A stretch of 42,072 bases of DNA, from positions 1 through 42,072 of the forward strand of contig JAQWBQ010000025.1 of assembly GCA_028706295.1 (NCBI GenBank), given 5' to 3'. The translations under genes were made by a program, and so were the position numbers. Of this stretch, positions 1-41,037 are shown one piece after another (the first letter of the stretch is position 1; each line of letters starts with the position of its first letter). This DNA is from Bacteroidales bacterium (GTDB lineage Bacteria > Bacteroidota > Bacteroidia > Bacteroidales > FEN-979). The notes beneath the pieces were generated by a model. It made no database searches. It saw only the letters and a list, made by a program, of their open reading frames with translations, and was not told the origin of the DNA.

Positions 1-189
1 AAATGGCGAAAAGAATTCAAAATTCAATGAAGGGAATAGATATTAGCGAACAGCGAATAGGGAAAAAGAAATTCAAAATCCTCAAATCCTCAAATTAGCA
101 CATGAGCACATTCAGTCAATATTTGTCCGCAATTCTCAGTCTCCAGTCCGCTCTTTGTCAAACTCTTCGTCAAACTCTTCGTCCGCTGG
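1..189. repeat. 3' word cassette C1
   Basis: Non-coding array directly after the stop codon of the 3226-aa gene. Read in that gene's direction (minus strand) it starts 1-2 nt after the stop with CAGCGGACGAAGAG, then two GACGAAGAGTTT-type 12-mers, further CGGAC words, AATGTGCT/CATGTGCT words, GATTTGAG words, and finally TATTCGCT/GTTCGCTAAT words. The same modules in the same order occur at 21614-21829 and 24229-24482, and part of them at 30247-30376. The 7-12 nt phases do not maintain a reading frame. The array runs off the left edge of the window, so its far end is unknown. Confidence 0.75.
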
Positions 190-19444: not shown

Positions 19445-21568
19445 TCAGCTTTTGTAAAAACTGTAATTCATATCCACCGGGATGGTGATAATGACGGTGG
19501 TTCCGGTTGATTGTCCCTGCTCATCTTCCGGGTCAACGATGACATAGTTGATTTTCCTTTTGTTGAATTTATTGATGATCCGGATGGTCTGGTCAATGAT
19601 GGAAATCCCTTTGCCGGTTCCGTGTTCTCCATGCACTCCCGCCTCTTTCCGCCCGACCCCGTTGTCACTGATCCCGATGACAAGCTCACTTTTTTCCTGC
19701 CGGATCCGTATTTCAAGCATTCCGCCGCTTTGTAATGGTTTCAACCCATGTTTGATGGCGTTCTCCACGAAGATCTGGGTGATCATTTTAGGAACCTGTA
19801 CCTGCATATCAACCTGATCATCCAGGTCCATCCGGCAAGTGAACGAATCGTTCATCCTGCTTTGCATCAGGTTGATGTAATGCTGCAGGAAATCGAGCTC
19901 CTCACCAAGTGTCCGTGAAAGCTTATCTGTCTGGAGCACGGTCGACCGCATCAGTCGCGACAGTGAGAGCAGGTTCCGGTTGGCGTCATCCGGTTTCCCG
20001 TCCAGAATCATGGCGCTGATGGAATTGATGGCGTTGAAAGTGAAGTGAGGATCCAACTGATTGTTTAACAGTAATAACTGTAACTCTGTGATCTTTTTCT
20101 CGGCAGCGATCTGCTGTCGCATCCTTTTGCGTTGCAGGTACTGGACCAGCAGGATAAAACCCAGGACAATCAAAAAGATCAGGAAATAAACCGGATACCT
20201 GAAGTAATACCAAGGATTGGGCTCCCAGGAAAAAACCGCCCGTTTGTTGCCATCCTGGATGCACAGTTTTCCTCTCTTACCTGCTTCCCGGATCGATTGG
20301 GAAAGCATGATTTGTCCGGGCAACGGGTTATCCAACCGGATCGGGTGCGAGAACTCATTATCGGTTATTATGAATGCTTTTTCATTTGCTGCTCTGAAAA
20401 GACACTCCTGCTTCCCGTCGCCGTCGATGTCGATGCATTGAAACAAAGTTGATCCGGGCGATTCGATTCTTTTCCTTTCAACGACAGTAAGGCTCGTGTC
20501 GTACCGCTCGATGATTCCGCCTTCACGGGAAAGAAAAACACTGCAGTCTGATTCACGTGATCTGAATAAATCGTAAAATCTATGCCGAAGGGTATCATCG
20601 AGCTGTCGCTCCCGCATTTTTTCTCCTTTTGCATTGAACAACATCAACCTTGCGGTTCCCGTTCCGGCATTCCTGGGCTCCAGGAGTATAAAAAAGAAAT
20701 GGGATGATTTGATTCTGACCACTTCGGGAGCCAATCGGATATATCGTCCGGGAAACTGCACCGGCGGTAAACAGAAATTAAAATCACGGTCATACGCTAC
20801 CAGCCAGGCGCTGTTATCATCATACCGGGCGCTGATCCTTCCCTGGTTATTGTCGATGGCATATGTATCGGTGATCAGTTCAGGACGGCCATCTCCGTTC
20901 AGATCGGCGGTATCGGTAACCGACTGAAACAATACCCCGGTATCGGTCTTTTTCAGTTCACCGGTTTTCAAATTATAGCTGAAAAGGAATCGGGGCTGTG
21001 CCCTGAAACCAGCCATAATTCCCGACACAATCTCTTTGATGCCATCCCGGTCAAGGTCGATCAGCCAGGTGGTTGTCAGTGAAAAATCATTTTCTCCGTT
21101 CTCAGGTTCCAAGGCACCAATAAACAAGTCCCTGAACAGAACCTTTTCTGACCGCATCGGGGCAATGCCATGTAAAAAGAGCGAATCGCCCACGCGCGTA
21201 AACAGGAAAATGCCCACGGAGCCGGTTGAATCATACGCGCCAACCGTGATCGCATCAACCTTAAGCAGTATTTTTCCGGGAAAATAGAAATGATCGAGAA
21301 TGAATCCCTTATGATCGTTAATCTTAAGAGAGGCCTTTCCTTCGGTATTGTCGAAATAGACGATTTGTTCACTGTTGCCATCCCCGTTCAGATCCTGATA
21401 CAGTTCAAGGGCATTCGGCTTGTGCGTTGCACCTGAATCGACAACTTCAACAGAATATTTCCGGAAAATATCGGGGAGGAATAATATGATCAGGACGGTT
21501 ACGGGCAGGGCAATGAACCATGGGGAGAGCCAGAAGTGCCGGAGTGAATAACGCCACAATCGTTTCAT
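19445..21568 (-). CDS. LytS-type sensor histidine kinase with extracytoplasmic FG-GAP-like sensor
   Basis: 707 aa. Membrane helix about 15-33; extracytoplasmic region about 35-452; second helix about 454-476; then a coiled linker and a His_kinase/HATPase module. The phosphorylation motif is QLDPHFTFNAIN with H508. The ATP-binding N-box is FVENAIKHG at 600-608, with DNGVG at 635-639 and GTGKGI at 650-655. The sensor contains four Ca-binding-like loops (DLNGDGNSE ~59, DLDRDGIKE ~171, DLNGDGRPE ~222, DIDGDGKQE ~380), which mark FG-GAP/VCBS-type propeller blades. That is unusual for LytS-like kinases, which more often carry membrane 5TM or tetratricopeptide sensors. Partner: the LytTR regulator downstream. 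The ligand is unknown; surface polymer or calcium binding is only a guess. Confidence 0.88.
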   Translation of the reverse strand: MKRLWRYSLRHFWLSPWFIALPVTVLIILFLPDIFRKYSVEVVDSGATHKPNALELYQDLNGDGNSEQIVYFDNTEGKASLKINDHKGFILDHFYFPGKILLKVDAITVGAYDSTGSVGIFLFTRVGDSLFLHGIAPMRSEKVLFRDLFIGALEPENGENDFSLTTTWLIDLDRDGIKEIVSGIMAGFRAQPRFLFSYNLKTGELKKTDTGVLFQSVTDTADLNGDGRPELITDTYAIDNNQGRISARYDDNSAWLVAYDRDFNFCLPPVQFPGRYIRLAPEVVRIKSSHFFFILLEPRNAGTGTARLMLFNAKGEKMRERQLDDTLRHRFYDLFRSRESDCSVFLSREGGIIERYDTSLTVVERKRIESPGSTLFQCIDIDGDGKQECLFRAANEKAFIITDNEFSHPIRLDNPLPGQIMLSQSIREAGKRGKLCIQDGNKRAVFSWEPNPWYYFRYPVYFLIFLIVLGFILLVQYLQRKRMRQQIAAEKKITELQLLLLNNQLDPHFTFNAINSISAMILDGKPDDANRNLLSLSRLMRSTVLQTDKLSRTLGEELDFLQHYINLMQSRMNDSFTCRMDLDDQVDMQVQVPKMITQIFVENAIKHGLKPLQSGGMLEIRIRQEKSELVIGISDNGVGRKEAGVHGEHGTGKGISIIDQTIRIINKFNKRKINYVIVDPEDEQGQSTGTTVIITIPVDMNYSFYKS

Positions 21569-21613
21569 AAATCAGGAAAAGAAGATAGTATAACCGGTTA
21601 AAAATTGTCAGTT

Positions 21614-21829
21614 TGGGGTTTCAGGTTTCAAGTTACAGAGTTTCAGGGTTTCAGGGTTTCAGAGTTTCAGCGTTAATAGATCTAAGATCAAAGATCAAAG
21701 CTCAAAAGAAGCGAATAGAAATTAGCGAATAGCGATTAGGGGAAAAATTAAAATTCTCACATTCTCAAATCCTCAAATCCTCAAATCCTCAAATTTTCAA
21801 ATTTTCACATCAGCACATTAGCACATTCG
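21614..21829. repeat. 3' word cassette C2
   Basis: Between the kinase start and the stop of the acyltransferase. Read in the acyltransferase direction (minus), from the stop codon: AATGTGCT words, AATTTGAA/GATTTGAG words, TAATCGCTATTCGCTAAT words, GATCTTT 7-mers, then CTGAAACC/CTGAAACT 8-mers. The module order matches C1 and C3. The stop codon lies in GGTGGACTAGCG, which resembles the GTGGACCAGCG word of the other cassettes, so the cassette may overlap the end of the gene. Confidence 0.75.
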
Positions 21830-22723
21830 CTAGTCCACCGGCCTGGTAAATTTCCACCGTTTGTGCGACCAGAGCCAGTATTCCGGTTTTGCGCGTATCG
21901 ATTCCTCCAGCCGTTTCATGAAGGCGCTGACAATCGCACCTTCTGGAAGTTCGGCGGGATTTTCAGAAATCAATTCTGTTTGAAACGTGTAATATCCCCT
22001 TTTAACCGGACGGATGTCGATGTAGACCACGGGCATGTTGAACCGTCGGGCCAGTTGCTCATATCCTTTGTGACAGGGGGTATCCTGGTTGAGAAACTGC
22101 AGCCAGATGCTGTTCTGCAGGTCAAACGGACGCTGGTCGACCCCGAATACATATCCCAGGGCCCGGTTCCGGTTTCCGGTCATGAAACGGAGCGTCTGTT
22201 TCACCGGCAGGATATCCATGTCGTACATGCCCCGGGTCTTTTGCTGGTATGCTTCGACATATGGGTTGCTGAAAGGACTGTAGATGACCACAAACCGGTG
22301 TTTTAACTGTTTTCCCAGGATCTTTCCCCATTCATGGTTCCCGTAATGTCCACCGATCAGCATGACACTCTTTCCCTGCTCGAAGAGGCGGTCGGTAAGT
22401 TCGGGGTTAACCACCCTGAACCGCTTGATCAGCGACGGAATGGACATGGTGTATCCTTTCAGGGTCTCGGCGACCAGGTCACAGAAAAAGCGGAAGAATT
22501 TTTTTGCCAGTTCTTCAATTTCGGGGGCGCTTTTTTCGGGAAACGAGTTTTTAAGATTGTTATAAACCACATCACGGCGGTATCTGATCCCATAATAGAC
22601 CAACAGGTAAAAAAAACGGGAAAAGATCTGGAGCAGCCAGAACGGCATGATCCGGAAGGTCTGTATAAAGAACCAGCTGATGCAGAACACCAGGTAATCG
22701 ACTATTTTCTTTGTTTGTTTCAA
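21830..22723 (-). CDS. LpxL/HtrB-type lipid A (or ornithine/glycine lipid) acyltransferase
   Basis: 297 aa, the usual size for the family. An N-terminal membrane-associated segment (about 10-45) anchors it at the inner membrane. The LPLAT catalytic motif HX4E is visible as H126-YGNH-E131 within MLIGGHYGNHEWGK, followed by family landmarks VDQRP (195-199) and EYWLWSHKRWK (281-291). Known family members transfer an acyl chain onto a lipid A precursor or, in some Bacteroidota, onto aminoacyl lipids. Which acceptor is used here is not visible. The start lies 45 nt after the stop of the CrtI-like gene, so the two are probably co-transcribed. Confidence 0.88.
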   Translation of the reverse strand: MKQTKKIVDYLVFCISWFFIQTFRIMPFWLLQIFSRFFYLLVYYGIRYRRDVVYNNLKNSFPEKSAPEIEELAKKFFRFFCDLVAETLKGYTMSIPSLIKRFRVVNPELTDRLFEQGKSVMLIGGHYGNHEWGKILGKQLKHRFVVIYSPFSNPYVEAYQQKTRGMYDMDILPVKQTLRFMTGNRNRALGYVFGVDQRPFDLQNSIWLQFLNQDTPCHKGYEQLARRFNMPVVYIDIRPVKRGYYTFQTELISENPAELPEGAIVSAFMKRLEESIRAKPEYWLWSHKRWKFTRPVD

Positions 22724-22768
22724 GTTTTCGATTCCGTTAAGGGGCGGGGTAAAGATACGGGGAAATTT

Positions 22769-24223
22769 TCAACGAACCGTTAACCTTTCCTGTCTGAGCG
22801 CTTCGAGCGCTGCAAAATAACCCGAGTAGACCACTCCGGAGAAGCCGCCGCCGAATTTATCCCAGGCGGAAGCGATGTGCAGGTTGGCAACCGGACTGAT
22901 CCGTTGTTTACTCCTCGGTCCCGGATTCTGGGCAAATCCGTACACCGCTGCATCCGTGTTCAGGGTATATCGCTTCATGGTTCGCGCCGTAGCCGCATCG
23001 TACCACACCAGGTGACGGTTGAGGCCCGGAACCAGTTGTTCGAGCCGGGAAAGGAACGATGCGGTTACTTCCGCCTTCCTCTGTTTATAATCCTCCGGAG
23101 TCATTCCGTCCCAGTAATTCAGGTAATCCTCCGCGACCAGGGCGGCAAAACCCTTTCCTTCCGCGACAAGTCCCGACCGGATGTGGCTGTAATCGGTCAA
23201 TACATAGGTCTTATCCTCGAACCTTCCATGACTGTTCCTGCCGATATCATTCAGGGTATTTACATCCGGCCCATACACGCAGGTACAGTAGCACGGGTTC
23301 CCGATCTCTTTGAGCGGCCGGTCAAAGCAAAGGTAAAGGGTATAGAGCGAAGCGCCTGGTGTCCGGTCGCTGATGAGATCCATCAGTTTCCGGCCAAATT
23401 CTTCAGGAAGTAATGTGGTAGCGACCTGCGGAAGGGCGGCATTCACGACAACCTGCTTTGTCCGGGCCGTATGATCGGTTCCATCGCGGAGTGATCGGAA
23501 TTTTACGCCGGTACACAGCCCCGAATCCATAAGAATTTCGAGGGCCAGATGACGGCAACGTACCTCTCCTCCGTGTGATTTGATGTATCCTGCAAGGTAA
23601 TCCGACAGAACCTGAGAACCGCCTTCGATGAATACACTTCCTGAATTATAATAAGTGCCCTGGGCCTGGGCATAATAGTCCATACTCAGCAAATAGGGGT
23701 CATCGCTGAAGGCCATCAGGTTACCCAGCAGGATCAGCTTCAGATCCGCATCCCCGATCAGCCGGTCGAGGTAGCCGCCGATGGATTCAAAGGCCTCCGC
23801 TTCACTTTCGGGTCGGTACTTCCTGAATTGCTCCATCCTGCCGAAATAGATATCCAGTCCGGCGGCTTCGTGTGGAAACTCCGCTAACAGTAAGGCTTTC
23901 GCGGCGTGAAGGTCGTGCGGAACAGTAACATCCTTCCGTTGTGTTATGGCGCGGTAAAAATGGGGTATTTCAGGGAACTTTACATGGTTAAAAATGTCGA
24001 GCTCCGTGAAGATCTTCTGTTTGGGATTTCCCCCCCCGAAGCCATCCATTTCGTGCAAACCCGCCTCCACGCGGAATTCCTTATGCCGGAAGGTCGTGGC
24101 ATAGCCCCCGGGAACGGAATGCTGTTCGAGCAACAGAACCCGTTTCCCTTCCCGCGATAATTTGGCTCCGGCTGTCAGTCCGCCCAGTCCGCCGCCAATG
24201 ATAATTACATCGAAAAAATCCAA
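22769..24223 (-). CDS. CrtI/retinol-saturase-like FAD-dependent oxidoreductase
   Basis: 484 aa. An N-terminal Rossmann dinucleotide-binding fold has GGGLGG at 10-15 and E33 for the FAD ribose, followed by the PGGYATTF signature of the phytoene desaturase / carotenoid isomerase / all-trans-retinol saturase group. The C-terminal FAD-contacting signature is also present (HIASAWDKFGGGFSGVVYSG). Family members desaturate, isomerise or saturate polyene chains. No other carotenoid gene (crtB, crtE, crtY) is in the window, so a carotenoid substrate is not supported. The position directly upstream of an acyltransferase and downstream of an acyl-CoA synthetase suggests lipid or polyene metabolism. Complete, no missing motif seen. 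Confidence 0.85.
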   Translation of the reverse strand: MDFFDVIIIGGGLGGLTAGAKLSREGKRVLLLEQHSVPGGYATTFRHKEFRVEAGLHEMDGFGGGNPKQKIFTELDIFNHVKFPEIPHFYRAITQRKDVTVPHDLHAAKALLLAEFPHEAAGLDIYFGRMEQFRKYRPESEAEAFESIGGYLDRLIGDADLKLILLGNLMAFSDDPYLLSMDYYAQAQGTYYNSGSVFIEGGSQVLSDYLAGYIKSHGGEVRCRHLALEILMDSGLCTGVKFRSLRDGTDHTARTKQVVVNAALPQVATTLLPEEFGRKLMDLISDRTPGASLYTLYLCFDRPLKEIGNPCYCTCVYGPDVNTLNDIGRNSHGRFEDKTYVLTDYSHIRSGLVAEGKGFAALVAEDYLNYWDGMTPEDYKQRKAEVTASFLSRLEQLVPGLNRHLVWYDAATARTMKRYTLNTDAAVYGFAQNPGPRSKQRISPVANLHIASAWDKFGGGFSGVVYSGYFAALEALRQERLTVR

Positions 24224-24228
24224 AATTC

Positions 24229-24482
24229 AAAATAGGGATTAGAGATTAGCGAATAGAAAAATACATAAATTCAAAATAGGGATTAGAGATTAGCGAATAG
24301 CGATTAGAAAAATACATAAATTCAAAATTTTACATCTTCACATTCTCAAATTTTCACATTCTCAAATCCTCAAATTAGCACATTAGCACATTAGCACATT
24401 TTTAATTTCCAGTCCACTTGTCCACTGGTCCACTGGTCCGCTGGTCCACTTGTCCGCTTGTCCAACTCTTCGTCAAACCCGT
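24229..24482. repeat. 3' word cassette C3 (most complete)
   Basis: Starts within a few nt after the acyl-CoA synthetase stop. In gene orientation: TTTGACGAAGAG, six or more 8-mers of type GGACAAGT/GGACCAGC/GGACCAGT, then ten consecutive 8-mers in exact phase (AATGTGCT three times, AATTTGAG, GATTTGAG, AATGTGAA and variants). Then two copies of a ~60-nt unit with TATTCGCTAATC and TTTGAATTTATG words. No open frame or RNA family recognised. Confidence 0.8.
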
Positions 24483-26267
24483 TCAAATAGTTCTGCTCAC
24501 CGAATAGATCTGGTCGATCACTTTGACATATTTTTCGAGAATGAACTTGCGTTTGAGTTTCAGCGTGTGGGATAGTTCTCCGGAGTGGGGCGACCATTCA
24601 TCTTCGACCAATTGGAACCGTTTGATGTATTGAAATTCTTCCAGGTGGCGGTTAAATTTATTGATGATCTCCTGATAATGTTGAAGGACCTTCGGATTGT
24701 TGATCATCCGGCCGGTTTGCTGATGGCGGCATCCCCTGTTGGCGCACCATTCGGCCAGAAGCTGGAAATTGGGTGCGATCAGGGCGCTGGCGAATTTTTC
24801 ACCTTCACCAAAAACAAAAGCCTGGTCGATGAATGCCGATTCCTTGAGCCGGTTTTCAATTTCCTGCGGGGAGACAAATTTCCCGTTGGCCAGTTTGAAA
24901 ACCTCTTTTTTCCGGTCGGTCACCATCAGGAAGCGGCCTTTCACAATTTCGCCGATGTCGCCGGTATGGAACCATCCTTCCGCATCATTTGCCTGAGCAG
25001 TGGCCTGATCGTCGCCATAGTACCCTAGCATCACGTTGGGTCCCTTGCACAGGATCTCCCCGTCGGCTGCTATTTTGATTTCTACGCCGGGAATGACGCT
25101 GCCCACGGAACCCAGCAGGAGATCCGGACTGGAAGCCCTGTTGATGGTGATGATTGGCGAGGTTTCCGTCAACCCGTACATGTTGATCACTTTAACGCCG
25201 GCTGCCCAGAAGATACGTTCGATCCGCGGCTGAAGGGCAGCCCCGCCGCAGCCGACCAATTGGATCTTTCCGCCGATGGCCTCCCTCCACTTGCTGAAGA
25301 TCAGTTTATCGGCCAGCCGGTGACGGAGGCGGTAGTGCCAGGGATTATTCCCATCGGGACGGTACTTGAGTCCCAGGGCGATCGACCAGAAAAAGATCCG
25401 TTTTTTAAACCCGGTAAGTTTATTACCCTTCTGGAGGATGGTATTAAAAATCTTTTCCAGAATCCGGGGAACCGCGTCGAAGCCTTCAGGCCTTATCTCA
25501 CGCATGTTTTCAGCAATCGTACCGAGGTTTTCGGCATAATAGATGGTTGTTCCCGAGTACTGGGTCTGGTAGTTGCCTAAACGTCCGCCCACATGGCAAA
25601 GCGGCAGGATGCTGAGATACCGGTATTCGGATTTCAACCGGAATACATCGGCGGCGGCCAGGAAGTTGGAAACCAGGTTCCGGTGCGACAGCAGAACGCC
25701 CTTGGAGGGTCCCGTCGTTCCCGAAGTATAGATCAGGACTGCCGGATCGTCGGGTGTGGTCTCATTCCGGGTTTTTTCGAGAAGACCGGTCAGTTCGGAT
25801 CCCTGTTTCCTTCCCAGTTCGAGGATTTCAGTCCAGCAACGTACCCCGGGGATCGGGTTAAATGAAAAAATGCGGTCTTCCTGCAAAATGGAGGATGCTT
25901 CATTGCCAAGTTTGGAATAAAGCTGCTTATCGCCGAAAATCAGCAGGGAGACTCCGGCATGGCGGAGGATATGGTTGAATTCACGAAGGCTGAGGGTGGA
26001 AAAGATGGGAACATGGATGATCCCGGCCATGGTAAGTCCCATGTCGACAAAATTCCATTCCGGGCGGTTTGTTGTGATGGTGGCGACCCGGTCGCCTTTG
26101 CCAAAACCCATGGCAAGCATTCCCAGGCTGAAGCTGGTGCTGTATTCAAGGTACTCATCTGTGGAGTAGGGACGCCATTTCCCCCCGACTTTACTAACGA
26201 ATACGTCCGGTTTGTTGAAATGCTGCCTGTATCGCTCAAGCAGGTCGAATGTTCTGGTTATTTCCAT
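24483..26267 (-). CDS. Long-chain acyl-CoA synthetase (AMP-forming)
   Basis: 594 aa, full length. It activates fatty acids to acyl-AMP, then acyl-CoA, at the cytoplasmic face of the membrane. ANL-superfamily motifs: P-loop YTSGTTGPSKG at 180-190, YGLTETSP near 380, GWFHTGD near 442, and the hinge/catalytic DRKKEVFKLANGKFVSP near 459, with the family's C-terminal LKLKRKFILEKY. It belongs to the FadD15/FAA-like long-chain branch common in Bacteroidota. It lies between fabH and the CrtI-like gene on the same strand. A -7 box (TATCTTTG, 26287-26294) about 20 nt upstream suggests its own transcript, which could run on through the cassette into the two downstream lipid genes. Confidence 0.93.
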   Translation of the reverse strand: MEITRTFDLLERYRQHFNKPDVFVSKVGGKWRPYSTDEYLEYSTSFSLGMLAMGFGKGDRVATITTNRPEWNFVDMGLTMAGIIHVPIFSTLSLREFNHILRHAGVSLLIFGDKQLYSKLGNEASSILQEDRIFSFNPIPGVRCWTEILELGRKQGSELTGLLEKTRNETTPDDPAVLIYTSGTTGPSKGVLLSHRNLVSNFLAAADVFRLKSEYRYLSILPLCHVGGRLGNYQTQYSGTTIYYAENLGTIAENMREIRPEGFDAVPRILEKIFNTILQKGNKLTGFKKRIFFWSIALGLKYRPDGNNPWHYRLRHRLADKLIFSKWREAIGGKIQLVGCGGAALQPRIERIFWAAGVKVINMYGLTETSPIITINRASSPDLLLGSVGSVIPGVEIKIAADGEILCKGPNVMLGYYGDDQATAQANDAEGWFHTGDIGEIVKGRFLMVTDRKKEVFKLANGKFVSPQEIENRLKESAFIDQAFVFGEGEKFASALIAPNFQLLAEWCANRGCRHQQTGRMINNPKVLQHYQEIINKFNRHLEEFQYIKRFQLVEDEWSPHSGELSHTLKLKRKFILEKYVKVIDQIYSVSRTI

Positions 26268-26286
26268 CTGCAGATATTATCTGCAA

Positions 26287-26294
26287 CAAAGATA
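26287..26294 (-). promoter_or_regulatory. Candidate -7 box for acyl-CoA synthetase
   Basis: Minus strand TATCTTTG fits TAnnTTTG exactly, 20 nt before the start codon. No convincing TTTG was found upstream, so only the -7 element is supported. Confidence 0.35.
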
Positions 26295-26372
26295 AGAGTT
26301 TATCGACCTTTTACCAGTTGTAAGAGAAAAAGGAATTCAATTGTTTTCTTTCAAAATGTAAATTGCATCCAT

Positions 26373-26400
26373 CATTTTGCATTTTACATTTTACATTTTG
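26373..26400. repeat. Short 7-mer array after fabH
   Basis: Four consecutive 7-mers (CATTTTG, CATTTTA, CATTTTA, CATTTTG on the plus strand), starting 5 nt after the fabH stop codon. It is a small relative, in position and phase, of the longer word cassettes. Confidence 0.6.
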
Positions 26401-26405
26401 AATTC

Positions 26406-27395
26406 TCAGTAGGCCCATTTCACCCAGATGGATCCCCAGGTGAATCCTCCGCCAAATGCGGCAAGAATAAGATTATCTCCTTTTTTCAGTTTGGATTCCC
26501 ATTCCCAGAGGCAGAGGGGGATGGTGGCATCGGTAGTATTTCCATACCGGTCGATGTTGATCATGACCTTTTCTTTTCCGACTCCCATCCGTCGTGCAGT
26601 GGCATCGATGATGCGCAGGTTGGCCTGATGGGGAACAAGGTACGCGATATCGGCCGGGGCCAGGTTATTCCGTTCCATGATCTCGGCGGAGACATCGGCC
26701 ATGCGGGTCACGGCAAATTTAAAAACGGGCTGTCCTTCCTGGTAGATATAGTGTTCGCGGGCATCGACGGTTTCGTGCGACGGCGGTCTCACAGAGCCGC
26801 CGGCTTTCATGTGGAGATGAACCCGGCCGGATCCGTCGGTTCCGGTTATCGCATCCATGATCCCGATCTCTTCTTCGGTCGGTTCTAACAGGAGGGCGCC
26901 GGCGGCGTCGCCGAACAGCACGCAGGTTTCGCGGTTGGTATAGTCGGTAATGGACGACATTTTATCGGCGCCCACCACGATAACTTTTTTGTACATCCCG
27001 GTTTCCACGTATTTGGAAGCGGTGATGAGGGCGAAAAGCAATCCGGAGCAAGCCGCGTTCAGATCAAAACTAAATGCGTTGCGCAGGCCGGCCTTATCGC
27101 TGATGATGTTCGCGGTGGCCGGGAACATCATATCCGGAGTCACGGTAGCGCAGATAAGAAGATCGATTTCTTCGGGACCGATTCCGGTCTTTTCGAGCAG
27201 GCCCTTAACAGCTTCAGCGCCCAGGTCGGAGGTGCCTAATCCCTCCCCTTTCAGAATATGTCGTTCACGGATTCCGGTGCGGGAAAGGATCCATTCGTCG
27301 GAGGTTTCCACCATGGTCTCCAGTTCTGCATTGGTCAGAATATAAGGAGGAACCCACCCGTGAATTCCTGATATCTTGGCTCTTAATTTTGACAT
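26406..27395 (-). CDS. fabH: 3-oxoacyl-[ACP] synthase III
   Basis: 329 aa, standard length. It starts fatty acid synthesis by condensing acetyl- or branched acyl-CoA with malonyl-ACP. The thiolase-fold triad is visible: C116 in AACSGLLF, H256 in VPHQANLRI, and N286 in [11 protein letters not shown]. The C-terminal GGGFTWGS glycine loop is present. It lies 6 nt after plsX in the conserved DUF177-rpmF-plsX-fabH operon. The active-site segment after N286 reads TTDATIP instead of the more common TSAASIP, which is within family variation. Confidence 0.96.
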
Positions 27396-27401
27396 GGTCG
27401 G

Positions 27402-28361
27402 TTAAATATTGTTTGGAGAATACCGCTCCAGCGCATGTTTGATTTTCTGCGATAAACGGGCCTCATGTACCTCTTTGGCCATCAGGATCATGCGTCGGAT
27501 CGCGTTGGCATTGGAGATACCATGACCCACCAGCACAGTAGAGTTGATCCCGAGGATGGGAGTTCCGCCGTAGTTCTCATAATTGAACCGGTCGAGGTAG
27601 CTGTCCCTGATCCCACGCTTGATCATAACCCGGTACATGGCTTCGACCTGTTTCAGGACGATGTTGCCGACGAAACCGTCGCAGACGATTACGTCGACGT
27701 TGTCGCGGAACAGTTCGCGTCCTTCAACATTGCCGACAAAATGATAATCCTTTGAGTCCTTCATCAACTGAAAGGCCGATTGGGCTGTAAGGCTTCCTTT
27801 TTTCTCTTCGGAACCGATGTTGAGCAGTCCGACGCGGGGTTTCTTAATATGGAACACATGTTCGGCAAAGAGCGAACCAAGGATACCAAACTGGTACATG
27901 ACATCGGGTTTTGCATCCGGGTTGGTGCCGACGTCGATCAGGACGCTGGTGCCCCCGTTTTCCTTGGGAATATATGCCGTTGTAGCCGGCCGTATGATTC
28001 CCTGGACGGTATTGACTGTGTAGATGGCACCCACCATCATTGCGCCGCTGCTCCCGGCGCCTGCAAAAGCATGTATCTCCTTATGTTTCAGCATTCTGAA
28101 ACCGACGGAAATACTTGAGTTGGGTTTATTGATCAGCGCTTTGGTAGGCTGTTCATCCATCTCGATCAGATCAGGCGCATCGACGATCTCAAAATTCCCG
28201 GGATCAACCTTTTCCTCCCGGAGAAAGGCATGAATGACTTCCCGGTCGCCGATCAAAACAATCTGATCCGATTCAGGGAGTTCCTTCCGGGCCAGAATGG
28301 CGCCATGCATAGTGGCTTTCGGAGCGAAGTCGCCCCCTAACACATCCAGACCGATTTTCAT
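27402..28361 (-). CDS. plsX: Phosphate acyltransferase PlsX
   Basis: 319 aa. It makes acyl-phosphate from acyl-ACP, the first step of the PlsX/PlsY route to phosphatidic acid. Family signatures: the N-terminal MKIGLDVLGGDFAPKA, GAGSSGAMMVG, LIDVGTNPDAKP, GNVEGRELFRDNVDVIVCDG with FVGNIVLK, and the C-terminal GINSTVLVGHGISNANAI. Soluble, peripheral on the membrane. It sits 21 nt after rpmF and 6 nt before fabH, so translation is probably coupled. No oddity seen. Confidence 0.96.
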   Translation of the reverse strand: MKIGLDVLGGDFAPKATMHGAILARKELPESDQIVLIGDREVIHAFLREEKVDPGNFEIVDAPDLIEMDEQPTKALINKPNSSISVGFRMLKHKEIHAFAGAGSSGAMMVGAIYTVNTVQGIIRPATTAYIPKENGGTSVLIDVGTNPDAKPDVMYQFGILGSLFAEHVFHIKKPRVGLLNIGSEEKKGSLTAQSAFQLMKDSKDYHFVGNVEGRELFRDNVDVIVCDGFVGNIVLKQVEAMYRVMIKRGIRDSYLDRFNYENYGGTPILGINSTVLVGHGISNANAIRRMILMAKEVHEARLSQKIKHALERYSPNNI

Positions 28362-28382
28362 TGATATCGATTTTGATTAGAA

Positions 28383-28568
28383 CTATTCCGCAGTAGCCTT
28401 CACGATGGCCTGTTTTCCACGATAGTAACCGCATTCGGGGCAGACCCGGTGGTAGAGTACGGGAGCGCCGCAGTTGGAACAAACAATAGTGGTGCGGGCA
28501 ACAGCCTTGTCGTGGGTCCTTCTCTTGTCCCTGCGGGTGGTTGAAATTTTATGTTTCGGGTGTGGCAT
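28383..28568 (-). CDS. rpmF: 50S ribosomal protein L32
   Basis: 61 aa. The N-terminal MPHPKHKISTTRRDKRR is the L32 signature. It has a zinc ribbon of C30-x2-C33 and C43-x2-C46, so this is the zinc-binding (C+) form rather than a zinc-free paralogue. It is located, as usual, between DUF177 and plsX, linking ribosome synthesis with lipid synthesis. Confidence 0.97.
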   Translation of the reverse strand: MPHPKHKISTTRRDKRRTHDKAVARTTIVCSNCGAPVLYHRVCPECGYYRGKQAIVKATAE

Positions 28569-28577
28569 AGGAAAAAT

Positions 28578-28612
28578 ATTTACGATTTATGATTTACAAT
28601 TTACGAATTATC
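28578..28612. repeat. ATTTACG 7-mer array
   Basis: Five consecutive 7-mers (ATTTACG, ATTTATG, ATTTACA, ATTTACG, AATTATC) between DUF177 and rpmF, inside an operon. Two more ATTTACG units lie at 33684-33697. Confidence 0.55.
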
Positions 28613-28641
28613 TAATTGATTATTAATTAGTTTTTTGATAT

Positions 28642-29160
28642 TTACTGTTCCTTCAGTTTTTTAAGGGCATCCCAGCGGGGATCGGCCGTGTGGTGACTGG
28701 TCAGTTCATGGAGCTTGGCCATGATCGCGGGATTGCAGGTACTATTTCCCTGTTCATCATCCGGGTGAACTTTCCGCGCGGGCAGTAACAGGTGAATGTA
28801 CTCGTAGATAAAAGGCGCGAGATCCAACTGATGTAAAGACTCCGGAATGATCTGTACCTCATCGGTTTCCTCCTCAAAACGGTCACCCAGTTTAATGATC
28901 AGCCGTTCCTCTCCCGCGACTTCGATATCGAGCGGATCCGCACAACGATCACATCGAACAACCACATGACCTGTCAGGGTGAAATGAAGATCCATCATTC
29001 GTTCCTCCTTCACCATCTTCATGGTTACCGATACCGCCCCATCACTGATCTCAGAATCTTCAGCAACTTCAAAGAACTTTGCTCCAACGTGGTAGTCGAA
29101 CTGATGCGCTCCCGGCTTCAATCCATGAAACGCCAACGTGTATCTTTCCGGATAGTTCAC
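28642..29160 (-). CDS. yceD: DUF177 (YceD-like) protein
   Basis: 172 aa. It matches the DUF177/YceD family found upstream of rpmF in most bacteria; family members have been linked to 23S rRNA accumulation and 50S maturation. Visible features: C70-x2-C73 in RCDRCADPLDI followed by the acidic EEETDEVQII stretch and the conserved DLAPFIYEYIHLLLP segment. First gene of the rpmF-plsX-fabH operon, with a full promoter match 20 nt upstream. Confidence 0.9.
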   Translation of the reverse strand: MNYPERYTLAFHGLKPGAHQFDYHVGAKFFEVAEDSEISDGAVSVTMKMVKEERMMDLHFTLTGHVVVRCDRCADPLDIEVAGEERLIIKLGDRFEEETDEVQIIPESLHQLDLAPFIYEYIHLLLPARKVHPDDEQGNSTCNPAIMAKLHELTSHHTADPRWDALKKLKEQ

Positions 29161-29179
29161 CGCTTCCTCAAAAAGGCTG

Positions 29180-29211
29180 CAAAATTATAAATTAATTTGG
29201 TGAATACCAAA
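29180..29211 (-). promoter_or_regulatory. Bacteroidota promoter of the DUF177-rpmF-plsX-fabH operon
   Basis: Minus strand TTTG (29208-29211), 20 nt, TAATTTTG (29180-29187), an exact match to TTTG-N19-21-TAnnTTTG. The predicted start site is about 13 nt upstream of the DUF177 ATG. Confidence 0.65.
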
Positions 29212-29286
29212 AACCTGTTCCGATTCGGTACAACGAGGACCCGGATGAATTTTAGGTACTCCTCCTGCAAATCTGCCAATTATTGA

Positions 29287-29294
29287 TATGTTTG
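29287..29294 (+). promoter_or_regulatory. Candidate -7 box for proline dehydrogenase
   Basis: TATGTTTG matches TAnnTTTG exactly, 40 nt before the start at 29335. No clear -33 TTTG is present. Confidence 0.4.
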
Positions 29295-29334
29295 CATATA
29301 AAAACAGAAACACCTGCACCAAAACCTGCAAACT

Positions 29335-30246
29335 ATGTTCAACAGGATCATAACCGGAATGCTGCCCCTGATGCCCAAAAAACTGGTCTGGATTTTCTCC
29401 CGGAAATACATTGCCGGGGAGACCATCGAAGATGCCATCAGGGTTTGCCGGTCGCTTCAGGCCCGGGGAATCAAGGCCACCATCGACCTGCTGGGTGAGT
29501 TCATTACCGAACTTGCGCAGGCAGAAGAAAACAAGAAGGCCTATTTAGCCATCATCGAGCGTATTGAAACGGAGAAGCTCGACGCCAACTACTCACTTAA
29601 ACCGACCAGTTTCGGGTTGCTGATCGACCCGGAGGTATGTTACCGCAATGTTCGTGAGATCGTGGCAAAAGCGGCCGAAAACGGAAATTTTGTTCGGATC
29701 GACATGGAGGACTCTCAATGCACCGACCTGGAGATCCAGTTGTTCAGAAGACTTCTTCCTGAATTTCCCGTACACGTCGGACTGGTCATACAGGCATATC
29801 TGAGACGGACCCTGCAGGATCTGCGCAACCTGACCGACCTGAACAGTTTGGAACATCCGGTCAATATCCGGTTATGCAAAGGGATCTACATCGAGCCTGA
29901 AGCGATAGCCTATAAAAAGTATGAAGAGATCAACCAGCATTACCTCGAAGATCTCGAATTTATCTTTCAGCAGGGATTCTATCCCGGAATCGCAACTCAC
30001 GACCAGCCTCTTGTCGACGGCGCCTGCAAGCTGATCGAGAAGTACCGGGTACCGAAAAACCGTTATGAGTTCCAGATGTTATACGGTGTGACGCCTGAAT
30101 TGAGGGCTTCGATCGTTGCCAAAGGCCACACCATGCGGGTGTATGTTCCGTTCGGCAAGGATTGGTTTGGCTACTCCACACGCCGGCTTAAAGAAAACCC
30201 CAAAATTGCAAGCCATATTATAAAAGCGTTGTTTGTAAGGGGATAG
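29335..30246 (+). CDS. Monofunctional proline dehydrogenase
   Basis: 303 aa. It oxidises L-proline to pyrroline-5-carboxylate with FAD and passes electrons to quinone; membrane-peripheral. A TIM-barrel PRODH domain without the P5C dehydrogenase half of PutA. Signatures: DLLGE (52-56), SLKPTSFG, RIDMEDS, VIQAYLRRT, RLCKGIYIEPE, GIATHD, YEFQMLYGV, and the substrate-binding YSTRRLKENP near the C-terminus. The divergent spacing from DUF177 leaves 174 bp with promoters for both. The stop codon is followed at once by word cassette C4. It converges on the 1077-aa oxidoreductase, and a shared role in amino acid oxidation is possible but not shown. Confidence 0.95.
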   Translation: MFNRIITGMLPLMPKKLVWIFSRKYIAGETIEDAIRVCRSLQARGIKATIDLLGEFITELAQAEENKKAYLAIIERIETEKLDANYSLKPTSFGLLIDPEVCYRNVREIVAKAAENGNFVRIDMEDSQCTDLEIQLFRRLLPEFPVHVGLVIQAYLRRTLQDLRNLTDLNSLEHPVNIRLCKGIYIEPEAIAYKKYEEINQHYLEDLEFIFQQGFYPGIATHDQPLVDGACKLIEKYRVPKNRYEFQMLYGVTPELRASIVAKGHTMRVYVPFGKDWFGYSTRRLKENPKIASHIIKALFVRG

Positions 30247-30376
30247 ACCAGCGGACGAAGAGTTGGACGTAGAGCGGACAAGTGGACTTGTTTCTGAAAC
30301 CCTGAAACTCTGAAACTCTGAAACCCTGAAACCCTGAAACCCTGAAACCCAAAACCAGGCAGACCAGTGGACCAGT
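30247..30376. repeat. 3' word cassette C4
   Basis: On the plus strand, directly after the proline dehydrogenase stop: CCAGCGGACGAAGAGTTGGA, GGACAAGTGGAC words, then seven CTGAAACC/CTGAAACT 8-mers, then GGACCAGTGGACC. This is the same orientation relative to the upstream gene as C1-C3, although this gene is on the other strand. Confidence 0.75.
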
Positions 30377-30403
30377 TAAATCGTCAAAGCTGGCAACCGT
30401 AAA

Positions 30404-33400
30404 TTATTTAAAGGCTTTTTCCAGCATCCCGTCGCCGGAGCGTTTCAGTCGGTCGAAATACGCGGGAACCTCTTTGCCCGTCAGTTTGTCAACGTACAAT
30501 TTCGCAAGGTACTGACCGAGCATGAAACCCTGGCCGCGCATTCCCAAAAAGAGGCCCAGTTCAGGATCAATGATCATGCGGGGTTCCACGTAGTATCCGG
30601 CCCATACGGCCTGGAATCCTACAGAGGAGAGTTCGGGGATCCAATCGGTGAAGATTTCAGAAGCGATCTCAACGAAATCCTGTGAATTGATCTTGATATT
30701 TTTATCGGCCTCCATCGGTTCTATTGCCGGTGAGGCGCAACCAATGATCTGTCCGGTCTCAGCAAGTTGTTGCCCGTAAACCGCAACAAATCCCTTGTAC
30801 CTGCGGCGGTCAATGAGCATGTCGAGCGGTCCTCCGTCTTTACCAAGCATCGGCAGTCGGCGGGTGATAAAGGCCTGGTGCTTTACAGGATAGAGGCCTG
30901 TTTCGATCCCGAGTTGTTTTGCAAAATGGTTTCCCTCGGGACCCAGCGCGTTGATGAAAATCTCACATTCATAGGTCACGTACTCATGTTGATGATTCCG
31001 GACTAACACCAGATAGGATCCGCCCTCTTTTTTTACATCGATGAGCCGGCAATCCTCTTCCACCCTGCCGCCTTTATCCAGTCCGATCCGACGGATCAGA
31101 TCGATGACCCTGCCGGGTGTGGCCTGCCAGCAATCGTGTGTGATCAGCGCCGCCTGGTAAGTCGTCAGCGAAGGATTGATCCGGGGAGAGATCTCCCTGA
31201 CGAAATCTTTGGGTTCAACCATGTAAGCATCGGACCATGACATCGAATCGACCAGCGCCCGGTACATGGTATCATCGTGCGCAAAGGTCACGTAACGGGT
31301 CGGATGGTAGTCGATGTTGTGGATCTTTTGCAGATCTTTAAAGATTTCATGGTTGTGCACCGCAATGTCAGACAGTTCGGGGAGGGAGAAATTGGGCCGG
31401 CCTCCGGCAATGTTGCGCCAGGATGCGCCCCGGCCGGAGTTGAGCAGTACGCATTCCATCCCGGCCTCACTGAGGTAACGGAACAGGGCGCTGCCCGTGA
31501 TGCCGCCTCCGGCCACAACCGATTTTACCTTTATCCTCCCGGGATGGGTTTCAGCCTTGCCAGTGATGACCGTTTCGTGCACGGTTCTCGGGTAGAGTTC
31601 ACCCATTGAGATCTGATTCGAGAGCGGCCCGCGCGGGGTGGGTTCCCCTACAATGCTGATCCCGCTTCCGCGAAGCGTCGTCTTCAGGCGGCGGATGCAC
31701 CGTTTGCCACGGCAGGCGCCCATTCCCAGCCGGGTGGTGTGCTTGATTTCGTCGACCGAGATGAATTTGCGGTCACCGATGGTTTCAAGGATCTCCTCCA
31801 GGGTCACATCGTCACAATGGCACACGTAGGTCGCGACTTTTTCTTCCTGATGATAGGGTTTAAAAGCAATCGGTTGCGGGTAGCGGTCCTTGAGAATAAA
31901 TCCCCGCACCTCGCTGAGGCCTGCGCCGTGAATTGTAAGCGAACGCACCCGGGCAATATTTGTTTTATTGGGTTTCGTGAGTATTTTCTCTACAACACCT
32001 TCTCCAAGGATCGTTCCCTGATTATCGACCAGAAAACATTCGGCCGGCGCTGCAACTTCATATTCAATGGGTAGAAAGAGCCAGTCTTTAGCAAGGTTAT
32101 ATCCGAATATCGCAAGTCCCGGGCACTGGTACACGCAATCCATACATCCGATGCATTTTGCGAAGTCGATTTCGGGAACCGTGCTGGTCGATGTTTTGGT
32201 GATGGCGCCATGAGGGCACGAGAATGCGCACGGATTGCAGGCAAAACCGTACAGGCAGTCGATCATCACGAAACCTTTCTGGTTCATCCGTTCGGGGGTG
32301 GGACGAAAGGGTTCGGGGATGACGCGCACAGGATGTTGTTGCGAATCGATATACTCTTTGGAAAGGGACAGATAGGTGTCATAATCGAATGAAGCGCCCA
32401 TCTCCTGAAGGACGTCGAAGGCCGCTTGTCTTCCCCGCAGCACGGCGCTGGTGCCCTCCCCGATCCGGATGGCATCGCCGGCGCCGAAACAATGACGTCC
32501 GAAAATTTCGTTCCCTTTGATCAGCAACTGATCATCCTGAACCAGCCCGGTGCAGATATTGATGGCATCGATGCCGTCGATGATCTTTTCGGTTCCGGGA
32601 ACCGGTTTGAAATTCACGCATTCGGCAACGACCGCCCCGGTTATCCCGTCGTGGTTCTCGTTGGGGATTGCTTTCAAAAGTATGTGTGAAGTAAGGATGG
32701 GGATACCCAGGCGTCTTACCCTGTTGGCCTGGACCGGGAATCCGCCTTCGGAGGGCAGGGCTTCGAGGATGGCTTTTACCCGGGCTCCCGCCTGCATCAG
32801 CTGATACGATGTAAGATAACCGATATTCCCGGCCCCGACGGTCAGAACATTTTTCCCGAGGAGGGTCAATTCGTTGTTCATCATCTTCTGAACCACGGCG
32901 GCGGTGAAAACGCCCGGCAGATCGTCGTTTTCGAATGTCGGCATGAAGGGGACCGCACCTGTGGCGACGATTAGGTACGCTGCATCGACAAAATAAATCT
33001 CTTCGGTCCGGATATTTTTCACGGCGATGCGACCACCCTCAAGAATATCCCACACGGTGGAATTGAGGAAAATGCCTTCGTGGTCTTCGCCTGCGAGGGT
33101 TTTGGCGATGTCGAATCCACGCATTCCTCCGAATTTCTGTTCCTTTTCAAAAAAGAAAAACTGGTGGGTCTGCATCAGGAATTGCCCGCCAATCTTATCG
33201 TTGTTATCAATTACAAGATTTGATACATGGTGTTTGTTCAGCTCTTCACGGGCAGCCAGACCGGCGGGTCCGGCCCCGATGATGGCCACCGTGGTTTTGA
33301 AAACCCGGTGGGGTTGATCCTTGCTCACGGAGGTGCGATAGGGTGCATAATCGTGTGGGATCTCTTTAACCTCTTTAACTCCATCGATCCGCGTGATACA

Positions 33401-33637
33401 GATCCGCTTTATCTGCCCGTCGACCAACATTTCGCAGGCGCCGCATTTCCCGATGCCACATTCCAGGCTCCGCTCGCGGTTTGCCAGACTGTGGCTGTGA
33501 ACCGGAAACCCGGCCTGGTGAAGGGCCGCTGCAATGGTAAACCCTTTATCACCGGTTATTTCATGTCCCTGGTAGTTGAATGTTGATTGTTCCTGTTGTG
33601 TGATCTCAATGATCGGATGCTTCGTGATTTTATACAT
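30404..33637 (-). CDS. Fused multi-centre FAD/iron-sulfur oxidoreductase (HcnABC/OoxAB-like plus 2x[4Fe-4S])
   Basis: 1077 aa, intact. Order: (1) plant-type [2Fe-2S] domain, 15-100, with C60, C65, C68, C80; (2) FAD/NAD(P) pyridine-nucleotide oxidoreductase, 113-420, with GAGPAG at 121-126 and GAGNIG at 268-273; (3) two [4Fe-4S] clusters, C461/C467/C470/C474 (unusual first spacing) and C495/C498/C501/C505; (4) BFD-like [2Fe-2S], C606, C608, C642, C647; (5) C-terminal D-amino-acid-oxidase-type FAD domain, 704-1060, with GGGITG at 710-715. In hydrogen cyanide synthase, opine oxidases and dye-linked proline dehydrogenases the corresponding modules are separate subunits. The DAO domain would oxidise an amine or amino acid and the rest would relay electrons. 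The substrate is unknown; the convergent proline dehydrogenase hints at an imino acid. A GlpA-like role is an alternative. Confidence 0.88.
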   Translation of the reverse strand: MYKITKHPIIEITQQEQSTFNYQGHEITGDKGFTIAAALHQAGFPVHSHSLANRERSLECGIGKCGACEMLVDGQIKRICITRIDGVKEVKEIPHDYAPYRTSVSKDQPHRVFKTTVAIIGAGPAGLAAREELNKHHVSNLVIDNNDKIGGQFLMQTHQFFFFEKEQKFGGMRGFDIAKTLAGEDHEGIFLNSTVWDILEGGRIAVKNIRTEEIYFVDAAYLIVATGAVPFMPTFENDDLPGVFTAAVVQKMMNNELTLLGKNVLTVGAGNIGYLTSYQLMQAGARVKAILEALPSEGGFPVQANRVRRLGIPILTSHILLKAIPNENHDGITGAVVAECVNFKPVPGTEKIIDGIDAINICTGLVQDDQLLIKGNEIFGRHCFGAGDAIRIGEGTSAVLRGRQAAFDVLQEMGASFDYDTYLSLSKEYIDSQQHPVRVIPEPFRPTPERMNQKGFVMIDCLYGFACNPCAFSCPHGAITKTSTSTVPEIDFAKCIGCMDCVYQCPGLAIFGYNLAKDWLFLPIEYEVAAPAECFLVDNQGTILGEGVVEKILTKPNKTNIARVRSLTIHGAGLSEVRGFILKDRYPQPIAFKPYHQEEKVATYVCHCDDVTLEEILETIGDRKFISVDEIKHTTRLGMGACRGKRCIRRLKTTLRGSGISIVGEPTPRGPLSNQISMGELYPRTVHETVITGKAETHPGRIKVKSVVAGGGITGSALFRYLSEAGMECVLLNSGRGASWRNIAGGRPNFSLPELSDIAVHNHEIFKDLQKIHNIDYHPTRYVTFAHDDTMYRALVDSMSWSDAYMVEPKDFVREISPRINPSLTTYQAALITHDCWQATPGRVIDLIRRIGLDKGGRVEEDCRLIDVKKEGGSYLVLVRNHQHEYVTYECEIFINALGPEGNHFAKQLGIETGLYPVKHQAFITRRLPMLGKDGGPLDMLIDRRRYKGFVAVYGQQLAETGQIIGCASPAIEPMEADKNIKINSQDFVEIASEIFTDWIPELSSVGFQAVWAGYYVEPRMIIDPELGLFLGMRGQGFMLGQYLAKLYVDKLTGKEVPAYFDRLKRSGDGMLEKAFK

Positions 33638-35415: not shown

Positions 35416-35637
35416 TTGTTAATGATTTTATATTTAATGTGCTCATATTTATTTTACTGCTTATCTCCTTTGAGCAAGTTGATGTTTTCGGGGCGGGGTC
35501 ATTTTATCAGCCACTGCCGGTTGCCGCTTTTGATACTTGCTTAAAGGGGATAAGCAGTTTTATTTTTTTCGGGTCAAATGGAATATCCATTGTGATCATC
35601 CGCGGTTTGCATGAACCTGTTTCCTATGGATATTTCA
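35408..35637. repeat. Shared leader repeat, copy A (split)
   Basis: Leader of the 203-aa gene. The proximal block 35408-35435, which includes the start codon, matches 41771-41798 at 27 of 28 positions. The distal block 35572-35637 (66 bp) matches 41803-41868 without gaps at 54 of 66 positions. It carries an inverted pair TGAAATATCCA / TGGATATTCCA at its ends and a strictly conserved CAGGTTCATGCAAA in the middle. In this copy the two blocks are 136 nt apart; in copy B only 4 nt. Confidence 0.8.
35456..35558. mobile_element. MITE-like 103-bp inverted-repeat element
   Basis: Terminal inverted repeats of 24 bp (35456-35479 and 35535-35558), 22 of 24 positions matching, beginning ACTGCTTATC. The interior is 55 nt with no coding capacity. 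It is flanked on both sides by TTTATTTT (35448-35455, 35559-35566), a possible 8-bp target duplication, though the context is AT-rich. The related leader at 41771-41868 lacks it. No transposase in the window matches it. It could instead be a strong attenuator-like stem-loop of the leader. Confidence 0.65.
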
Positions 35638-40843: not shown

Positions 40844-40857
40844 AAAAATGTTTTACT
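40839..40857 (+). terminator. AT-rich hairpin at the glmS stop
   Basis: AGTAAAA / TTTTACT with a 5-nt loop, overlapping the stop codon and followed by a T-rich tract. The stem is weak, with only two GC pairs. Confidence 0.25.
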
Positions 40858-41037
40858 TGTTGTTACTTTTCTTTTTCTTAATCGTTTGGATGTGTGGGGA
40901 ATGCCGCCATTCTCAGGTTATTCAAAGAGCAAGCATTGTGAAATAGTGTTAAACACCCGGTTGATTTTAAAAAAGTCAGATTCTTCCAGGCCAATGTTCC
41001 TTCAACCGGAGGTCAAAATTCACCATACCAATTAGCG

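Follow-up and report, generated by a model that had tools for sequence, protein, structure and literature searches.

The window, that is, the whole 42072-base stretch analysed here (bases 1-42072 of the 43,713-base contig C42), belongs to the draft genome of a Bacteroidales bacterium (G000; 3.99 Mb in 149 contigs) and carries four intergenic cassettes built of degenerate short words (Table 1). Their flanking genes are ordinary ones, encoding an Ig-domain secreted protein, a histidine kinase, a lipid A acyltransferase, an amine-oxidase-like flavoprotein, an AMP-binding enzyme, a proline dehydrogenase and an FAD oxidoreductase. A first-pass annotation made from the sequence alone had described the cassettes as an ordered word grammar starting 0-10 nucleotides (nt) after a stop codon. 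The four arrays are located as it claimed, with words, module order and direction relative to the upstream gene common to all, and the ends of the open reading frames (ORFs) at 190, 21830 and 24483 (minus strand) and 30246 (plus strand) bear out that distance for each cassette. Concentration in gaps, order, sense bias, a shared hinge, rapid turnover and one filled/empty site characterize the arrays in this species and its sister species (G006), and the commonest of the words, AATGTGCT, occurs in other Bacteroidota with its polarity kept and, frequently, in register with the stop codon. The cassettes resemble copies of a single minisatellite family, dispersed and non-coding.

The cassettes of the window and their vocabulary

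The family appears to have three parts: degenerate words of 7/8 nt on the stop side (A, B, C, D, E, F), then a hinge rich in A and T (about AATGTGAAAATTTTGAATTGATTTTTTCCC), and finally G, H and I on the far side. None of the four window cassettes contains the full module set. The words were defined in the window as A12 = GACGAAGAGTT; A = GGAC[CA]AG[TC] or GGACTGG; E = [AG]ATGTGCT; F = [AG]ATTTGAG; G = CTA[AT]TC[GC]; H = TTTGA[ATG]C; and I = CTGAAAC[CT]. Read from the upstream stop, cassette 2 gives Ex2, Fx4, Gx3, Hx3, Ix5 (over 21569-21829) and cassette 4 gives A12, A, Ix7, A (over 30247-30403), while cassette 3 contains a 44-nt tandem duplication at 24214-24300. An exact 8-nt phasing had been reported over ten units of cassette 4; the CTGAAACC run does exist (30294-30350), with 7 units (7.1 copies) rather than ten. 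The 12-mer word is likewise real, as a tandem repeat in cassette 1 alone (2.8 copies).

Table 1. Word cassettes, hinges and a minor array in the window
Feature	Coordinates	Strand	Modules	Position and basis
Cassette 1	1..189	-	A12x2, A, E, Fx2, hinge, Gx2	behind stop of Ig-domain / Por_Secre_tail protein gene 190-9870
Hinge of cassette 1	58..82	-		T-rich, joins the stop-side words to the far-side words; aligned with other hinges
Cassette 2	21614..21829	-	E-F-hinge-G-H-I	behind stop of lipid A acyltransferase gene 21830-22723
Hinge of cassette 2	21737..21765	-		read and aligned with other hinges
Cassette 3	24224..24482	-	A12, Ax7, Ex3, Fx3, hinge, Gx5	behind AMP-binding enzyme gene 24483-26267
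Hinge region of cassette 3, variant form	24305..24345	-		by reading only; missed by the hinge pattern
Cassette 4	30247..30379	+	A12-A-I x7-A	behind proline dehydrogenase gene 29335-30246, between convergent genes
Short ATTTACG array, minor member	28578..28610	+	word C, 4.7 copies	tandem repeat detection and reading

Contig C42 starts inside cassette 1, and contigs C17 and C127 of a genus mate (G012) also start with AATGTGCT runs; the arrays may break assemblies.

Placement, order and turnover in two sister species

The genome sample comprised ~425 kb, namely the window and 20 further stretches (L-numbers below), 12 of which had been chosen for carrying word matches, so that the gap densities given here are upper estimates. 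A simple ORF-based caller, which misses small genes, defined 157 gaps of 60 nt or more. At up to one mismatch, GATTTGAGx2 has 37 matches in the genome and AATGTGCTx2 has 55, against 0 for each backward pattern, which excludes a chance origin of the words. Gaps are richer than genes in each of the eleven word classes (per kb, G 3.71 vs 0.005; D 2.27 vs 0.005; E 1.12 vs 0.057; I 2.74 vs 0.29). The contrast is weakest for A (0.60 vs 0.17) and K (0.52 vs 0.17), because short patterns match genes by chance too; genic matches, in 385 kb of genes, number 65 for A, 79 for H, 112 for I and 67 for K.

Periodic arrays occupy 38 of the 157 gaps (32/110 same-direction, 5/20 convergent and 1/27 divergent), the repeat period being 8 in 22 of them, 7 in 13, 11 in 1 and 12 in 2. 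A second array definition gave 29/110, 5/20 and 1/27 for the same three gap types in G000 and 39/84, 5/13 and 1/17 in G006. Divergent gaps are thus poor in arrays in both species (1/27 vs 34/130, p=0.01, and 1/17 vs 44/97, p=0.002). The class order, in the sense of same-direction gaps, is GGACCAGT (A), TTGACAA/CGGAAAA (B), GATTTACG/GATTGACAAG (C), GAATGACT (D), AATGTGCT (E), GATTTGAG (F), TTTTGAATT (J), CTAATCG/CTATTCG (G), CTTTGAAC (H) and CTGAAACC (I). Pairs of words in same-direction gaps follow it 185 times and violate it 20 times in G000 (138:14 without the array-dense stretch L080), a ratio flattered by the fact that the order was fixed from these data before counting; the fairer count in G006 is 122 for and 29 against, although many of its sites are orthologous to those of G000, and neither pairs from one gap nor related copies are independent. 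An ordered and oriented grammar behind stop codons therefore holds throughout the genome sample and in the sister species, and the outcomes that the first-pass annotation had named as refuting it, a random spread of the words or a loss of their order, were not found. Orientation, on the other hand, is a strong bias and not a strict rule. Sense-majority gaps outnumber antisense-majority gaps 27 to 5 in G000 and 33 to 8 in G006, and the exceptions at L069:10723-10920 and L078:12753-12926 are reversed strings starting from the downstream gene. In one further gap a word cassette lies downstream of an FMN (flavin mononucleotide) riboswitch (RF00050; L079:4588-4736, minus strand), in the leader of the next gene.

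The F-to-G segments align across the hinge with the consensus GAATGTGAAAATTTTGAATTGATTTTTTCCCTA. The alignment has 34 rows, representing 17 distinct loci in G000 and 4 in G006, a single chance row that lies in no array and, for the rest, duplicates from overlapping loci. As the search pattern demanded an F word and a TCC(C)TA end and left the intervening stretch free, only the likeness of the middle counts as evidence, and there the columns agree by up to 80% in part. A hinge shared by 21 array loci is unexpected for separately assembled words, which is why the cassettes resemble copies of a single repeat family dispersed over the genome; a grammar of individually placed words, as first proposed, is not needed.

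G006 is 98% identical to G000 in protein sequence (main DNA matches 94-97%, one short match 92%), and between the two the arrays have changed rapidly. Among orthologous gaps of at least 45 nt, length differences above 2 nt are seen in 14 of the 15 with arrays vs 7 of the 19 others (p=0.001), and four of these seven (L065:17382, L078:7032, L079:2839, L080:8192) carry array words below the array threshold. The gap of cassette 3 measures 259 nt in G000 and 204 nt in G006, where the 44-nt unit is single. Cassette 4 is missing in G006, which has 12 nt between the genes and an 8-nt stretch in the cassette's place; at this one clean filled/empty site (30247-30403 vs G006) no target-site duplication was found. 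The G006 counterpart of the cassette 2 gap does not align, and the next gene beyond it (19445-21568) had no match in the G006 stretches compared. A heptamer array in the gap 26268-26405 has kept its length. At orthologous sites modules are swapped within a constant order: L065:15462-15620 reads E-F-G in G000 and, in G006, is a B-rich string ending in G-like words, and L079:734-958 has shrunk from 225 nt in G000 to 87 nt in G006, with only A-type words left. The spacer generated by slippage that the first-pass annotation had listed among possible roles is supported in part, by the changes in unit number and tandem segments.

The comparison also brought up other variable sites. In a polysaccharide-type locus (L080 on contig C87 of G000, L316 on C137 of G006; glycosyltransferase-like and ATPase-like ORFs by reading) most gaps carry arrays, and four neighbouring genes of L080 best match C137 in another order and the same direction, though they may be paralogues. 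At 35457-35557 the window contains a 101-nt element resembling a miniature inverted-repeat transposable element (MITE), with near-perfect inverted ends (CTGCTTATCYCCTTTRAGCAAGT) whose pattern recurs in L074, L080 and five G006 stretches; the corresponding G006 gap is 165 nt longer. Relative to the window gap 40844-41037, G006 contig C189 (~32.6-34.5 kb) has ~1.7 kb extra, with an ORF that is ATPase-like by reading.

Relatives, stop-codon register and RNA structure

The slot behind the proline dehydrogenase gene was compared in 18 genomes of the genus, our own included. It holds cassette 4 in G000, other 8-mer arrays in G009, G012, G004, G017, G016 and G011, and short or inverted ones in G018, G008 and G015, the array types being AATGTGCT, GGTAAGTT, GGTAGCGA, GAATGGTG or others; eight of the 18 (G006, G013, G002, G014, G003, G005, G010, G001) have no array there. 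Of 100 genomes searched as relatives, 19, our own among them, contain doublets of AATGTGCT (backward controls 0). The string E-F-TTTCCC is found in 2 of 19 genus genomes, our own and G006 (controls 0), and the E-F order in our own genome only (1/393) in an order-level sample into which genus mates were not drawn.

Beyond the genus, the doublet count in 395 genomes (7, own included, vs 6 for the backward control) is uninformative except for G000 and G596, the latter a genome of the same class and another family (completeness 100, 55 AATGTGCT doublets, G+C 62% in the part read). The claim for the wider phylum rests instead on a ATGTGCTRATGTGCT scan of an 84,980-species collection, on arm direction and on stop-register counts. 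The scan returned at least 114 stretches (several loci coming from the same genome), of which 80 are listed, with about a thousand chance matches estimated for the full collection. By title, the listed stretches comprise 65 from Bacteroidota, 14 from other groups and 1 unassigned; the Bacteroidota matches are 59 in gaps and 12 genic, those of the other 15 loci 6 in gaps and 10 genic, so that the matches outside Bacteroidota are mostly genic, as chance predicts. E arms point away from the nearest gene edge in 60 of 69 cases at the named loci listed (57/65 in Bacteroidota), in 25/25 in G596, 13/13 in G000, 4/5 in G006 and 7/7 in a replicate. In G596 they form inward-facing inverted arms, and inverted copies are also seen in L212, L234, L254 and L262.

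The register was measured, in arrays with at least two E words, as how far the first T[AG]ATGTGC is offset from the stop codon. On the stop side, the offset is 0 mod 8 in 30 of 69 arrays (p=1.7e-10 vs 1 in 8), 20 of them lying at exactly 0; start-side arrays have no register (3/29 at 0 mod 8). With negative offsets allowed, 20 of 63 lie at 0, where the stop codon is itself the T[AG]A of the first unit, 4 at -8 and none at -16. Exact zeros come from named genomes (11/40), G596 (4/14) and genus mates (5/9). Without the 15 non-Bacteroidota loci, the counts are 20/60 at 0 and 2 at -8 (named genomes 11/37 at 0), and 28 of 58 arrays from named genomes, G596 and genus mates taken together are at 0 mod 8 (p=3e-11). 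Gene truncation as the cause of the register was rejected on the offsets 0, -8 and -16 (20, 4, 0), since random-frame insertion into gene ends would predict near-equal counts. Two of the anchored stops, in G012 and G004, follow KAFK codons, the same end as that of the convergent partner gene 30404-33637, and these genes therefore appear untruncated.

RNA folding was compared with 20 dinucleotide shuffles per sequence, for gaps of 80-310 nt and, in G000, the first 26 arrays. These show no excess structure (mean z -0.03, 2/26 below -2, vs -0.97 for 20 other gaps), which leaves an RNA hairpin or terminator in the window species unsupported and speaks against a 3'-untranslated-region stabiliser or substitute terminator acting through structure. 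The ten arrays of G596 average z -8.1, all ten below -2, vs -2.6 for 20 other gaps. Rfam has no match in the window and none on the arrays of six array-bearing stretches. The G+C-rich hairpin followed by a T run that marks an intrinsic terminator was not found in the sense that excess structure is missing, although the hinge has a T run and no terminator scan was made. Array gaps are G-rich over C in their first half and C-rich over G in the second (+0.21/-0.31 in G000, +0.22/-0.33 in G596, +0.20/-0.12 in G006; other gaps -0.01/-0.06 in G000 and +0.03/-0.15 in G596). What is shared is thus words, polarity and skew, not structure. Two structured elements lie nearby in the material: ATGGTG-type 8-mers in direct and inverted blocks at L070:16424-16680, with a predicted strong hairpin (z -4.0), and a Bacteroidales small signal recognition particle RNA (RF04183; L305:10494-10596) near an array gap of G596.

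Origin of the arrays and known repeat systems

The explanation that we consider probable, with considerable reserve, is a dispersed minisatellite family shaped by slippage and word-anchored recombination, with an anchor at the stop codon and an inherited order. Blocks would grow and shrink through replication slippage and unequal recombination, which would account for the unit changes; copies would overwrite one another by homologous recombination at shared words, and such exchange would explain why modules are swapped while their order is kept, the "grammar" being inherited rather than selected. A duplicated or newly joined word containing T[AG]A would spare the protein, so that an anchor at the stop codon could account for both place and register. 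Words with lengths not divisible by three would be tolerated mainly outside genes, and the stop-side position and the scarcity in divergent gaps would reflect purifying selection plus the anchor. A role at the RNA level would then be unnecessary in the window species.

Several observations weigh against this explanation. Slippage alone would yield gene-specific words, and for one word to recur across distant genera copying or transfer would be required, of which none was seen; cassette 3 had no BLAST match in plasmid and phage collections, a weak negative given that the low-complexity filter was on. A role of arrays as recombination seams was not borne out, gene-order breaks being no more frequent at arrays (4/19) than elsewhere (3/22, p=0.68, all compared G000/G006 pairs). 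The exact register is missing in the window species (0/7 stop-side E arrays in G000, 0/3 in G006), and a small replicate gave 1/4 and 1/1 at exactly 0, neither significant (p=0.41, 0.12). Start-side arms (24 of 60 away-pointing arms in named genomes, 10 of 25 in G596) are unexplained by a stop-codon anchor, and the strong hairpins suggest that at least in G596 structure is kept.

A functional 3'-end element, with sense words acting in mRNA as an array for an RNA-binding protein or as a stop series and kept by selection, appears unlikely, though it has several observations in its favour: the sense bias (27:5 and 33:8), the stop-codon register in relatives, an A/G variation in T[AG]ATGTGC that by reading preserves the stop codon, and the filling of the same slot by different words in genus mates. 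A stop-start variant would read the AATGTGCT repeats as AUG UGC UAA/UGA with overlapping UAAUG or UGAUG. Stop codons do number 0.085 per nt in the sense direction vs 0.062 in antisense, but shuffles reach 0.075, and three-frame closure is mixed (arrays vs shuffles, 62 vs 69 nt in G000, 45 vs 77 in G006, 60 vs 101 in G596); an all-frame stop series as the driver was set aside on the stop density. Such an element would also have to accommodate the G596 arms beside start codons, which lie on the antisense strand, the lack of excess structure in G000, and a slot that is empty in G006 and array-free in eight of 18 genus genomes. Inward-facing arms at both gap edges in G596 and several named genomes, the shared hinge and the filled/empty site would fit a non-autonomous MITE-like element with ends T[AG]ATGTGC...GCACAT[CT]A, moved by a transposase preferring stop codons or stop-codon ends. 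We regard it as improbable, because the one clean site has an 8-nt stretch replaced instead of a target-site duplication, the G596 gaps have by eye no common core, and the two word blocks are non-complementary in G000, where excess structure is lacking. About as improbable is a sequence-specific writing process (e.g. a templated enzyme or a recombinase) that would start at the stop T[AG]A and lay 8-nt words behind Bacteroidota genes, with a varying vocabulary and a shared anchor and direction. Lastly, the folding of the G596 arrays, the inverted copies in the four stretches named above and the skew common to G000 and G596 could indicate a family of bidirectional terminators or 3' hairpins, inverted arms forming a stem behind stops and the window species having decayed versions; the folding of the 26 G000 arrays and the absence of Rfam matches make this very unlikely.

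A few percent of divergence have been enough for this multi-word cassette, whose order would be inherited, to turn over, with little change in where it sits and which way it reads; how such arrays start and spread in bacteria thereby becomes a testable question. The arrays could serve as fast-changing strain markers, and may account for some assembly breaks at gene ends in the genus.

As to known systems, CRISPR (clustered regularly interspaced short palindromic repeats) arrays have repeats of ~21-48 nt with unique spacers between them, and the first-pass annotation was right to set the cassettes apart from them, the units being 7-8 nt without spacers. Repetitive extragenic palindromes (REPs), bacterial interspersed mosaic elements (BIMEs) and MITEs occur as dispersed intergenic copies, the REP/BIME unit being a palindrome that folds into a stable hairpin. 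The cassettes share this dispersal and, in G596, inverted arms; unlike these elements they have no excess structure in G000, strong hairpins being confined to G596, and the single site tested lacks a target-site duplication. Ordinary REP elements were thus also correctly set aside. No terminal inverted repeats were seen in the cassettes of the window; G596 and some named genomes have inverted arms. The short tandemly repeated repetitive (STRR) heptamers of cyanobacteria are present in many copies, as degenerate tandem repeats of 7 nt between genes. In comparison with this general description, the present cassettes are ordered and multi-word, include 8-mers, have a stop register in relatives and belong to another host group.

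With STRR heptamers and the long simple sequence repeats they share head-to-tail units of 5-11 nt above chance, concentrated in gaps. For the latter (5-11 nt class; Mrazek et al. 2007, as cited in PMC4679880) 7-mers are the commonest and slippage has been proposed; this is a statistical class, and order, polarity and anchor lie outside its description in the cited sections of PMC4679880. A search of the PubMed Central literature (preprints excluded) found the six word strings only in two leishmaniasis papers, once each; by topic it brought up PMC4679880 and another paper on heptamer repeats, PMC4692102. The novelty first claimed was nevertheless overstated, as short intergenic tandem repeats, some of them in Bacteroidetes, have already been described (PMC4679880). 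The closest relevant sections there concern the TAACTGA intergenic direct repeats (MacGregor 2015, PMC4679880), a single exact heptamer whose usual place in the main genome is immediately ahead of start codons, related heptamers being seldom repeated; they also mention larger heptamer assemblages in some Bacteroidetes gaps, and gaps that differ between close relatives. Like those repeats as there described, the arrays are short non-triplet tandem words in gaps, patchy among species. They consist of other words (TAACTGA itself was not searched for), and the arrays mostly follow stops, in the sense direction. Overall, what distinguishes them from the TAACTGA repeats, as far as those sections go, is a set of about ten degenerate 7/8-mers in fixed order, joined by a hinge and placed mostly behind stop codons.

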